A stretch of DNA of 64,000 nucleotides, from positions 1 to 64,000 of the forward strand of contig JNDT01001358.1 in NCBI GenBank assembly GCA_000697055.1. Reading direction: 5' to 3'. Of the stretch, positions 1 to 3,890 are shown piece by piece. Under the pieces are notes generated by a model. That model was not told the DNA's origin. It worked only from the letters and a program-made list of their open reading frames with translations, and searched no databases. Numbering within the stretch: the first letter of the stretch is position 1; each line of letters starts with the position of its first letter. Made by a program: the position numbers and the translations under genes. Source of the DNA: Saksenaea vasiformis B4078 (lineage: Eukaryota; Mucoromycota; Mucoromycetes; Mucorales; Saksenaeaceae).

Positions 1-1
1 T

Positions 2-1382
2 CAAACCCTCGCTTCCATTTCTAGCTCAGTCAAACAAAACGATAACTTTGAAGATGCAGCAACCAAAATTTTCAAATTTGACTATCTAAATGGAGGCGCT
101 CATCGGCTTTGGTCTATAGCTACTGACGGCTATTCAATTAATTTTACGTTTGCGCGTAAGAAAGTTTCGACCGAAACTCGACAGAAAAATCAAAAAACCA
201 TTGAAAATTTTCACCGTTCGCTGGATGAGTATGACGTGAAAGGCGTGGATCCAGGGATAACGGACGCGTATATTGCAAGCAATGGCTGCGACAAGTACAG
301 CCATGAGGTGCTGAAGTCATCGACGTCGGAATTCTACCACATCGCCCATTACCATGCAAGCCGCGCAATTACTGAGAAACTTAAGAAAGAAGACTGCGAC
401 ATTATAGATATAGAAATGAATATTCTAACTTGCAAAACTACACAAATAGCGAGCTATGAGCATCATATTACCTACCTGCTACTCCATATCAAGAAGTTGC
501 ACAACTTCTACGATCGTCGATTCGCAAGTTTGAGAATTTGGAGGCAAGAAATCGCAATGTAAGATACATATGATAACACCTATCTTTTTCAGATATCAAG
601 GAAAGCAAGAAGCCACGAACGAGTTCGCCGAGAGGCTTATCTCAGGTGGCGAGAAATACTATACCAAAAATACACGTAACCAAAGGAAACATAGAAGACA
701 AAAAAGAAATAGGAAAAGGAAAAAGAAGTTGTAAGTACGTTTGCCTTCAAAGCTTCATCGTACTCATTTTGACAGCTTATCGAGACCAAAGATGAAATCA
801 CAGCTGGTACCAAAGCAGCCAAGGTAAGTCATTTATTGACGTGTGATCATCTTGAGACTTACAAAGATATCCAGCAAGGAAGACCCAGTTCCTATTGGTC
901 GTCGAGTACTACCACCGTCGTTCAGAAGGTAAAGTTATTGTCATCCGCAATCTGTAGGTTGATTGTTGTATGGTGTTTCCAGAAAGAAGTGGAAGAAATC
1001 AGAACCCTCACGTACAAAGGGAAAATCGCTGATCGCATATGGAGCCGCAAAGTTTAGTGGAACAATCGGAAGGAAACATACAGGGGTATCGAGTCAGATT
1101 CTCAAGGCACTCAGAACGAAGGAAAAAGAAGGACGATGTGTCGTTGTGGAAGTGGATGAGTTTCGTACATCCAAAGTATGTTCCGGTTGCGGCAATGACA
1201 AATTACAGAATGTGAAAGGAGTGTTCGGGACGTCTCTCCACGCCGTTGTCAAATGCAAAAAATGTAAAGCGGTCTGGACCCGCGACGTGAACGCGAGCCG
1301 CAACATCTTGTCAGTAGCGACTCACATGGCTGGGAATGGAAACGAAAGGCCCGTGCCATTCCGACGCTCATTGCGGAGATAG
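2..1382 (+). CDS. Fanzor (eukaryotic TnpB-like RNA-guided nuclease), 5' partial
   Basis: Open at the left window edge; five exons join in one frame: 2-558, 593-730, 776-823, 875-928 and 983-1382 (1197 nt, 398 residues plus stop). Visible landmarks: a TDGYS segment as in Fanzor N-terminal halves; RuvC-I motif GVDPGITDAY with the acidic residue at nt 248-250; a basic KHRRQKRNRKRKKK linker; an IAYGAAKFSG segment where TnpB normally carries the RuvC-II glutamate; DEFRTS (Glu codon 1158-1160); a zinc ribbon CSGC..CKKC (Cys codons 1179, 1188, 1254, 1263); RuvC-III WTRDVNASRN (Asp codon 1284-1286). The family is known for RNA-guided DNA cleavage, with a 3'-encoded guide RNA and a relocated catalytic glutamate; the DEFRTS Glu is the likely substitute here (inference). 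The N-terminus lies outside the window. No disruption is seen. It is followed by a hairpin and a dispersed repeat. Confidence 0.9.
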
Positions 1383-1398
1383 ACCTCCAGCATCAGAT

Positions 1399-1436
1399 AC
1401 AAGTTGTTTTTCTGTAGAAAAACTGAAGATACTTGT
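1399..1436 (+). other. Hairpin just 3' of Fanzor stop, candidate guide-RNA scaffold
   Basis: Seventeen nt after the stop codon lies a nested inverted repeat: outer arms ACAAGT (1399-1404) and ACTTGT (1431-1436), inner arms GTTTTTC (1406-1412) and GAAAAAC (1417-1423) around a TGTA loop. Fanzor and TnpB guide RNAs are known to arise from the 3' end of the gene and its downstream flank, so position and fold fit. No transcript evidence; an ordinary 3'UTR hairpin is the alternative. Confidence 0.35.
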
Positions 1437-1460
1437 TATAAATAACATAATTACATCCAC

Positions 1461-1965
1461 GCACCAATCGGAACGCGCAAAATAGCACTATTTAAAGGGT
1501 CGCATGAATTTCTTTTCCTTTCCCTTTTTTCCTTCGGCTCTGTTTCTTTAAAACGTCCCCGGTACGTACTGGAATTAAATATACATACAGAGTTACTCGT
1601 GTTCTTTGATGCATTGTTTGGGCCACTTGATCGTCACCGTTCAATCGACTGGTTCATGGCATGTCCACCTTATCTCCCACCTTCACCTGTCGTGGTGTGG
1701 GAAACAGTCTCCACAAACGCATGGAATTGCTCCTGAGAGGCAAATAAAGATAGCCTTCAAGTACCATGCCATTCACTAACCATGAATCGATCTTTATACT
1801 GCTCAAATGAGTTCCCTGTCCACAACGAGATCAGTCTGATGTAACTTATCAGTTCTCCATTTTATGTGGTGATGACCGCGCATGGGATTCCTTGTTTAGC
1901 GCAAACTTGGCTCTTCGTAGACGCGTACTTTATTTAGAGTAGCGTAAATCTTTCAATTACCGGTA
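1461..1965 (+). repeat. Dispersed ~500 bp repeat, copy 1 (3' flank of Fanzor)
   Basis: Starts near CACGCACCAATCGGAACGCG, then a TATTTAAAGGG block, a pyrimidine run, a CGGCTCTGTT block, CCCCGGTACGTACT, a CATTCACTAACCATGAA block at about 1771, and ends with GCGCAAACTTGGCTCT, an ATTTAG block and GTAGCGTAAA. The same blocks occur in the same order at 12614-13130 and 40725-41275. It is noncoding and sits directly behind the Fanzor gene, so it may be the 3' part of the same mobile unit. Confidence 0.7.
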
Positions 1966-1992: not shown

Positions 1993-3890
1993 TTAAACGA
2001 AATTTTTCTCTTTCTCGGCCCATTCTTTCCATTTACATTTGATAACAATCAAAGCGATAGATGCAAAGCATAGAACTCCTCCAAACAACGTAAATACAAT
2101 ACCGGTTCCAAGTGCCTTTATAGCATCGTATGCAATCCAGGTACTGGTTGCACCCATGATAGATCGTATAAAATTACTGCATGCTAAATGGAAGATAATA
2201 ATTAGTTTCCTTGATAACAACTTCATTTCTCCTTACAAACAACCGACGCGCTACGTTTCGGAAAACAATCAGTCAAGTAAGCAGAAAGAGTGACGTTGGG
2301 TACCGTCACGCTTAAACCGACTACGAAAGTTTTTTGGTTAACGACGTCCTTCTTTTGTGGGGTTCATTACAAAAGAATTGGCCAATAAGGCCATAGGCCC
2401 AGTGGAGGTTTAACTGAACGCACCAACCATATTCGATCAATGCAATCCATTGCATCACAATTGCTCCCCAGAATACACATCCACCCAACCGCATCTCTGG
2501 ATGGGTTTCTCTGTTTGGAGCTTCTCTGACATGCTGCTTGTAGATCCTGTCAGAATATTGACCACCAACAAAGCCGCCACATATTGATCCAAGAGCTAGT
2601 GGCAGATAGCATAACCCCACAGTCCCAGTGTCAAGATGGTACTGATCGTTATACGTTCGTGTGAAAGATGTGGAAACAAGATAAATATTAAAAAAGCTAT
2701 ATAAAAAGGAAGGTGAGAAGATAGATCTCTTCCTTCATGTAGTAAAAGATAAACTTACAGGAAACCTATAAAAAAGGCTGCTAGAGACACCCTGGGAAAC
2801 CTGAATAAGGACAGAGGGGATAGTGGATTCATCAGACGTAGGCTGCGTTTCTGAACGTGTACTTCGGGTTTATTCTCGGCTGTTGGCAAGGTTGGAGGAG
2901 CTCTCCACGTTTCCGGTAGAAAGAAAATCATGGACAACCATACACAGCCCATGTAGATCGCAAGAAACCATAAATTACTCCGCCAACCAAATGCATCATT
3001 CAGGTAGCCTCCAATGATCGGCCTAGCAAGAGACAGATTTAATTTTCTAGAAAAGCCGAGAATATCCACTATTTACCCGCTTGCGAGGCCGAACAAAGGT
3101 CCGCTTGTATAAAACGCAAAGGCCTTCCCTCGTTCGGCAGGTTCAAATATATCAGAGATTGTTCCTGCGCCCATAGATAGAGCCTATGATATGTGTCAGA
3201 AAGGGATCAAAGTTGCGGCAATCAATCGAGTTACACAGGCTACACCAATACAACCGACGACACGAGATATAATAAACATAACGATGTTAACAGAGACTGC
3301 GCAACATATGTAGCCAACCGTTCCGACGAAGACGGCCAACAGATACGGTAATCTTCGGCCTTTTATAAGGCCATGTCAGTTTACTTATTCTTCACGATCC
3401 ACGGTTGTTACCAAATGTATCTGCTAACGCCCCCCATAGTATCGGCTAAAATCGCTTATAAGACACAAGACATCATTATAGCAGTCATGTACATACAAAC
3501 ACAGCAAGCGTAAGAGAGCCTGCAGATACTAATAACGACCTGTTAGCCTCCCTGCTTATTTTTACTACATACATGATGAATTGACTGCTATCGGCGTAGT
3601 GTTAAGCGATTCTTGCACATCAATAAGTGCAGGTAACTTCTGAAGTGAAGTCCGTTATTCATTTGATGACGAAGTATTGGAACTCGTTACGTATATGGTA
3701 CTGCTCATTACGCTTCTGAGCTTTCAAGTTTAGACCAGGATTACAGGACTGCTTCCCATCTTACATCAGGTTCGCTGCAGAAACAATGGCTAAAATGGTA
3801 TATTTCTTCGTTTTGCCGAAGGACCGTGGATCTGTGTCATCGTTTTTGCCATAGGCATGCACCCATGGCCATCTTATACAGCATGTCTGC
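1993..3890 (-). CDS. MFS transporter, Qdr/Tpo-like DHA1 family
   Basis: Drug:H+ antiporter-type major facilitator by recognisable segments read right to left over many short introns: a first membrane segment KYTILAIVSAANLM (about 3800); LPALIDVQESLNTTPIAVNSS (about 3590-3650); ILWGALADTFG joined to GRRLPYLLAVF (3320-3445, the DRxGRR loop); GAGTISDIFEPAERGKAFA (3090-3185); PIIGGYLNDAFGWRS (about 2980-3020); FFLPETWR; then a half with QYSDRIYK (2321-2620) and a last membrane segment GIVFTLFGGVLCFASIALIV before a basic Lys/Glu tail ending at 1993. These match the fungal Qdr layout (known). The exact start and some N-terminal exon joints are unresolved and a few residues between the first two membrane segments seem missing, so mild decay is possible. 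Substrate unknown. Confidence 0.65.

Follow-up and report, generated by a model that had tools for sequence, protein, structure and literature searches.

The window analysed here, 64,000 nucleotides of Saksenaea vasiformis B4078 DNA (contig JNDT01001358.1, C184 below), opens on the 3' part, roughly two-thirds, of a Fanzor1 gene, followed by the right end of the mobile element to which it belongs (Table 1). The contig begins at window base 1, where the assembly truncates the gene, so that the original prediction of a gene running off the left edge holds. As first read, the fragment has introns at 559-592, 731-775, 824-874 and 929-982, all four with GTAA..AG ends; their removal from window 2-1382 leaves 398 codons plus a stop in one frame, while the unspliced frame reaches a stop at 560. 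The frame contains no stop or frameshift inside those 398 codons, which are the part of the gene over which intactness can be checked. In the protein so obtained the putative catalytic triad falls at residues 83, 325 and 367; a hand count puts these at window positions 248, 1158 and 1284.

Table 1. Fanzor1 gene fragment and element right end at the start of the window
Feature	Position	Strand	Remarks
Exon 1, Fanzor1, 5' end cut by contig end	2..543	+	Through RuvC-I with DPG; first reading extends to 558
Catalytic D codon, exon 1	248-250	+	RuvC-I DPG
Intron 1, preferred GC-AG form	544..592	+	AG^GCAAGA...CAG; GT-AG alternative of the first reading, 559-592
Exon 2	593..730	+	Very basic stretch at its end
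Intron 2 (probable)	731..775	+	GTAAGT..CAG
Exon 3 (tentative)	776..823	+	Variable linker
Intron 3 (tentative)	824..874	+	GTAAGT..CAG; C392 donor differs
Exon 4 (tentative)	875..928	+	Variable linker
Intron 4 (probable)	929..982	+	GTAAAG..CAG; identical in C392
Exon 5: RuvC-II alternative glutamate, CxxC..CxxC zinc ribbon, RuvC-III aspartate	983..1382	+	PF07282; profile alignment to SpuFz1
RuvC-II alternative glutamate codon	1158-1160	+	Exon 5
RuvC-III aspartate codon	1284-1286	+	Exon 5
Stop TAG	1380-1382	+	End of exon 5
Element 3' end, candidate omega-RNA scaffold	1383..1438	+	Boundary in 6/6 copies; consensus fold
ACAAGT, can pair with ACTTGT at 1431-1436	1399-1404	+	Around an imperfect palindrome
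Right flank; guide segment on the omega-RNA reading	1439..1458	+	Flanks unrelated between copies

The five-exon chain of the original prediction does restore the frame, and two parts of it need revision. Its first intron, of 34 bases, leaves in the product five residues, QEIAI, that relatives lack. The homologous joint in the paralogs C380 and C193 reads ..FWR^YIGRQ, intron-less paralogs in the same genome read ..NYQGRQ or ..NYRGRQ straight across the site, and RY or RF stands there in most of 12 aligned homologues from outside the genome. At the homologous donor site, position 544, the window has GC, and C392, the nearest copy, is identical. Because of these joints, paralogs and outside homologues we prefer a GC-AG intron 1 of 49 bases; the first splice joint was probably placed 15 bases off, and the product would have 393 residues. 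The second part concerns exons 3 and 4 (48 and 54 bases), which introns 2-4 flank within a poorly conserved linker. Both are multiples of three, skipping either leaves the frame intact, and under loose donor rules 172 stop-free chains of four introns link exon 1 to exon 5. These two exons are tentative, one of many stop-free solutions, with splice consensus and a single close copy as their support.

The original prediction had named the gene a Fanzor and proposed a profile search, and such a search matched both the TNB domain and solved Fanzor1 proteins, at E values that exceed chance. The TNB zinc-ribbon domain (Pfam PF07282) was found with an E value of 3.1e-13 on the spliced protein and 3.1e-14 on exon 5, and a family profile that included the window protein reached SpuFz1 at 2e-37, GtFz1 at 4.8e-31 and PpFz1 at 4.5e-28 (chains 8gkh, 9cer and 9cf0). 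In the profile alignment D(248), E(1158) and D(1284) align with D383, E541 and D606 of SpuFz1, as numbered in PMC11423790 and with a chain offset of 394 derived by hand, which supports the catalytic residues named in the original prediction. In a single-sequence search the window protein gave an E value of 0.012 at best, with OrfB/TnpB-type chains, and its best database homologue is 29% identical across 40% of the query; it is therefore a divergent member of Fanzor1.

Public data yielded 25 homologues, and an alignment of the window protein with 12 of them left D83, P84, G85, D319, E320, C330, C352 and R361-D362 invariant (393-residue numbering), so that the RuvC-I DPG, with its aspartate at residue 83, is common to all 13 sequences. 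The RuvC-II glutamate sits, by count, six residues before the first CxxC, an alternative position described for Fanzors in PMC10711439. The motif that Bao and Jurka gave for Fanzor1, D-X(125,275)-[TS][TS]XX-C4 zinc finger-X(5,50)-RD (PMC3627910), is present, with 244 (or 239) residues from the D to the TS and five from the last C to the RD. The spacing CxxC-x(12,18)-CxxC of Yoon et al. is absent, the two CxxC of the window protein being 21 residues apart; that pattern was designed for finding TnpBs that carry the Fanzor-type glutamate and is no definition of Fanzor1 (PMC10711439). On sequence grounds we regard the fragment as part of a real, if divergent, Fanzor1 gene carried by a fungal mobile element, and as a known kind of system. 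Among the papers searched, none has Fanzor together with Mucoromycota, and one, PMC11423790, has it together with Mucorales.

The variable linker is part of a basic insertion of about 70 residues that lies before the strand SLIAYG. It is found in other copies in the same genome, and the 12 outside homologues lack all but a few of its residues. PpFz1 of Parasitella parasitica (PDB 9cf0), also a fungal Fanzor1, has a RuvC insertion too, the FRI domain (PMC11423790), but there 110 residues lie between two matched stretches that meet at profile positions 473/474, whereas the insertion of the window family is elsewhere, just before SLIAYG. An FRI domain was rejected on this difference in position.

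The right end of the element is sharply defined. All six copies of the window's subfamily that reach it share a boundary, within a base or two, at about position 1438, and continue into unrelated DNA. The 56 bases from the stop codon to this end include ACAAGT, then the palindrome, and finish in ACTTGTTA. The terminal TA(C/T)TTGTT(A/G) recurs in two other subfamilies (nine right ends of type B and three of type D), whose upstream sequence differs and whose flanks are again unrelated. Upstream of the end, and starting 40-109 bases from it, the motif A(T/C)(A/G)CAAG(T/C) occurs in 15 of 18 right ends from the three subfamilies, as against 2.3% in mononucleotide shuffles, a count in which copies within one subfamily are not independent; the three ends without it are the B-type C60, C602 and C641. 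Complementarity of six pairs at the motif, with G-U allowed, was found in 13 of the 15 (C458 and C421 fail), and in several type B and D copies (C380, C576, C542 and C421) the motif lies inside an open frame.

In SpuFz1 the omega-RNA scaffold lies between the stop codon and the element end, and a variable 3' extension is the guide (PMC10432273). By analogy the right end in the window is a candidate omega-RNA scaffold. The competing explanation is that this end is conserved purely as a transposase recognition site, a hairpin in DNA with no RNA scaffold, and we rate it a serious contender at somewhat under even odds. It gains from three results: Rfam gave no match in the window at gathering thresholds; the single-sequence fold of the right end is weak, with a z-score of -0.39 and 69 of 200 shuffles as good; and although the consensus fold of the six copies has a hairpin near the 3' end, RNAalifold found one pair changed on both sides (in C458) and a covariation term of +0.58, which is unfavourable. 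Against it, besides the position of the omega-RNA in SpuFz1, stands the retention of ACAAGT and ACTTGT at differing distances in three subfamilies; it is on this cross-subfamily motif that the argument for pairing is built, since the single-sequence fold was unremarkable and the covariation term unfavourable.

The left end, defined by four copies only, is preceded in all four aligned copies by an A-rich flank, AAAAAG, which may mark the target site or belong to the element itself. A dispersed repeat ends at the left end in C527 and C458. This repeat, of about 190 bases (about 3600-3797 in locus L040), ends there in an A-tract, and 51 of the 59 matches in one search fall in or around it; it is a possible insertion hot spot.

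Three possible pointers to the mobilising enzyme were looked for and not found, namely repeats of at least 14 bases joining the ends, a Y1 transposase and a demonstrated link to the resident Helitrons. Terminal inverted repeats of at least 14 bases, the limit of the test, were absent from locus L043, and none of five pairs in L041 joins both ends; a TIR transposon (Mariner or MuDR) carrying Fanzor would be expected to have such repeats at its ends. The IS200/IS605-type Y1 transposase (PF01797) had no match in the genome. Helitron Rep gave 23 matches, 20 of them over the cut-off, and resident matches lie in long open frames of up to 1130 amino acids (for example G000:C648:79108-79653). The CTRR 3' end of Helitron1 is absent, the elements ending in ACTTGTTA or close variants. 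The Chlamydomonas Fanzor1 Helitrons CRe-1 to CRe-3 (Bao and Jurka 2013) resemble the window family in their multi-exon genes, internal deletions, 3' ends better kept than 5' ends and 3' hairpin (PMC3627910); in contrast, the ..ACTTGTTA end of the window element is not shared by the one resident Helitron 3' region examined (L077, 3501 bases); a second stretch, L078, is truncated to 526 bases by its contig end. A Helitron carrier is accordingly unsupported, if still conceivable.

Fanzor copies are abundant in this genome assembly (38.7 Mb in 666 contigs). At least 137 matches to the TNB domain were found with 150 of 388 candidates scored, and at least 130 exon matches to the window protein with 104 of 561 candidates scored. 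The window's own subfamily comprises C392 (96% over 1-1444), two loci in C527, C458, C653, C623 and C257; more 5' pieces lie in C22, C393 and C370. Loci L041, L043, L045 and L044 are internally deleted derivatives. In C458, C623 and C257 the 5' region runs directly into exon 5; in C527 the second locus, likewise such a derivative, resumes at window 1173. C458 is frame-broken besides its deletion.

The WED/REC region lies mostly outside the window. The right end of C527 carries a 5' part, consisting of an N-terminal exon, exons that look REC-like by eye and have no Pfam match, and then the overlap with the window. The N-terminal exon has a C-x2-C..H..C-x2-H pattern and a weak match to Zn_ribbon_2 (E value 0.13, below the cut-off). 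N-terminal exons with this pattern were seen in two Fanzor subfamilies, at L040:4415-4810, where no Pfam match rises above the cut-off, and, by eye, in L055. A separate Fanzor1 fragment, 32% identical and with no internal stop, lies on the minus strand about 9 kb past the window (G000:C184:72756-73328).

C527 is the only contig found to dovetail with C184. Its end overlaps the start of C184 by 402 bases (window 1-401) at 99%, and this end-to-start overlap suggests, short of proof, that the two are the same locus. Relative to C392, C527 has lost four bases within the 28 bases upstream of window base 1, which breaks the frame; C380 and C193 share the C392 frame at this site (C392 frame by eye). 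The original prediction had held that a frameshift in the missing N-terminal part would undo its case, and C527 has one, which counts against the window copy only if C527 and C184 are one locus. The four differences between C527 and the window, including one extra base in the overlap, all fall in 161-202, and because of this clustering contig-end errors in either contig are possible.

The nearest copy, C392, has two frame lesions in exon 1 relative to the window, losses of one base and of eight bases. The two copies have 27 coding differences, of which six are private to the window, six to C392, two mixed and 13 unpolarisable; for four of the twelve polarised changes, one in the window and three in C392, C527 is the sole evidence of direction. 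The window-private changes comprise five nonsynonymous and one synonymous, or 4 : 1 once the change polarised by C527 alone is omitted. Among them is the change of the RuvC-III NRD to TRD, at which the asparagine base is retained in all five other copies. The dN/dS ratio between the window and C392 is 0.70 over all exons; for exon 5 it is about 0.27 against C653, whose exon 5 itself contains 1-base indels, 1.0 against C458 and 0.88 against C623. The numbers are small; on them the window-private coding changes look neutral, and constraint, once present in the family, appears to have been lifted recently from this copy, past selection on the family being argued from the ratio of about 0.27 with C653.

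The evidence leans towards a decaying relic, or at least a copy unproven as a working gene, and away from the view that it may be active and not fossil. An alternative, which we consider unlikely, is that the Fanzor1 gene in the window is whole and expressed, and that the lesions in C527 are contig-end errors or belong to another copy. The stop-free 398 codons with the triad in place speak for such a gene, as do the packing of the C527 differences into 42 bases, much as in an assembly artefact, and the past purifying selection seen with C653. It is opposed by the 5 : 1 excess of nonsynonymous changes, with the N to T beside the RuvC-III RD, by the broken state of C392, by the four-base loss in the sole candidate 5' part, and by a first joint that needs a GC donor or else adds five residues absent from relatives. 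The description of the gene as spliced is sound, a single frame being left after removal of four introns; its description as uninterrupted and perhaps active is not supported, the 5' part being cut off here and frame-broken in the C527 candidate.

Taken together, window 2-1438 is in our estimate, at a probability of roughly 0.8, the 3' portion of a transposable element of the Fanzor1 kind, in a copy that is presumably a relic or at any rate unproven, with the scaffold at the right end and its role put forward by inference. Its product would be a member of the TnpB/Fanzor family, a RuvC nuclease guided by RNA. By analogy with SpuFz1, an RNA from the element's own right end could supply the scaffold, as far as about position 1438, and take its guide from the flank, and guided cutting of DNA would perhaps help to retain the element in the genome. 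That the gene has instead been domesticated and has lost its mobility is hardly credible, given an element end common to six copies with unrelated flanks, a copy at 96% and the internally deleted derivatives, even if the past purifying selection on exon 5 seen with C653 speaks for it.

As a transposable Fanzor1 element, the window family is readily compared with SpuFz1 of Spizellomyces punctatus (SPu-1 element, PDB 8gkh). Both have a RuvC D-E-D with the alternative glutamate and a zinc ribbon; both belong to multi-copy elements with a short conserved stretch from stop codon to element end, and the deletion derivatives of the window family are comparable to ghost loci (PMC10432273). They differ in that the window gene has several introns whereas SpuFz1 is one ORF, that the family has no terminal inverted repeats of at least 14 bases that we could find, that its RuvC carries the basic insertion of about 70 residues, and that a related copy, in C527, carries the N-terminal zinc-binding-like pattern. 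It is tempting to speculate on a fungal Fanzor1 group without ordinary terminal inverted repeats and with a hairpin at the right end, in which pairing of the final ACTTGT with a conserved ACAAGT close to the stop codon closes the omega-RNA scaffold beside the guide and an unassigned form of mobility leaves 3'-anchored, internally deleted copies that retain only the guide RNA; we would wager against this generalisation at about three to one.

A genome so rich in Fanzor copies is a natural setting in which to ask what benefit Fanzor brings to its transposon. Useful for that question are the well-defined right end of this subfamily, its deletion derivatives, the candidate guide-RNA scaffold that is conserved in all three subfamilies, and the basic nuclease-domain insertion, which other copies in the genome also have. 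A further lesson is that a spliced frame may look intact in a single contig and yet say little about activity.

Several other sequences were observed near the element and in the genome. A dispersed repeat of about 160 bases lies just to the right of the Fanzor end (window 1459-1634), and 31 of the 40 DNA matches listed for window 1-1900 fall on it, at 72-80% identity. The chitin synthase N-domain (PF08407) has six matches in this genome and none in 14 control genomes. On the minus strand of the window, an exon-like frame at 2758-3069 matches the Major Facilitator Superfamily at 5.9e-6, below the curated cut-off, and a frame at 10355-10819 matches the Glucosamine-6-phosphate isomerase family at 1.8e-13.
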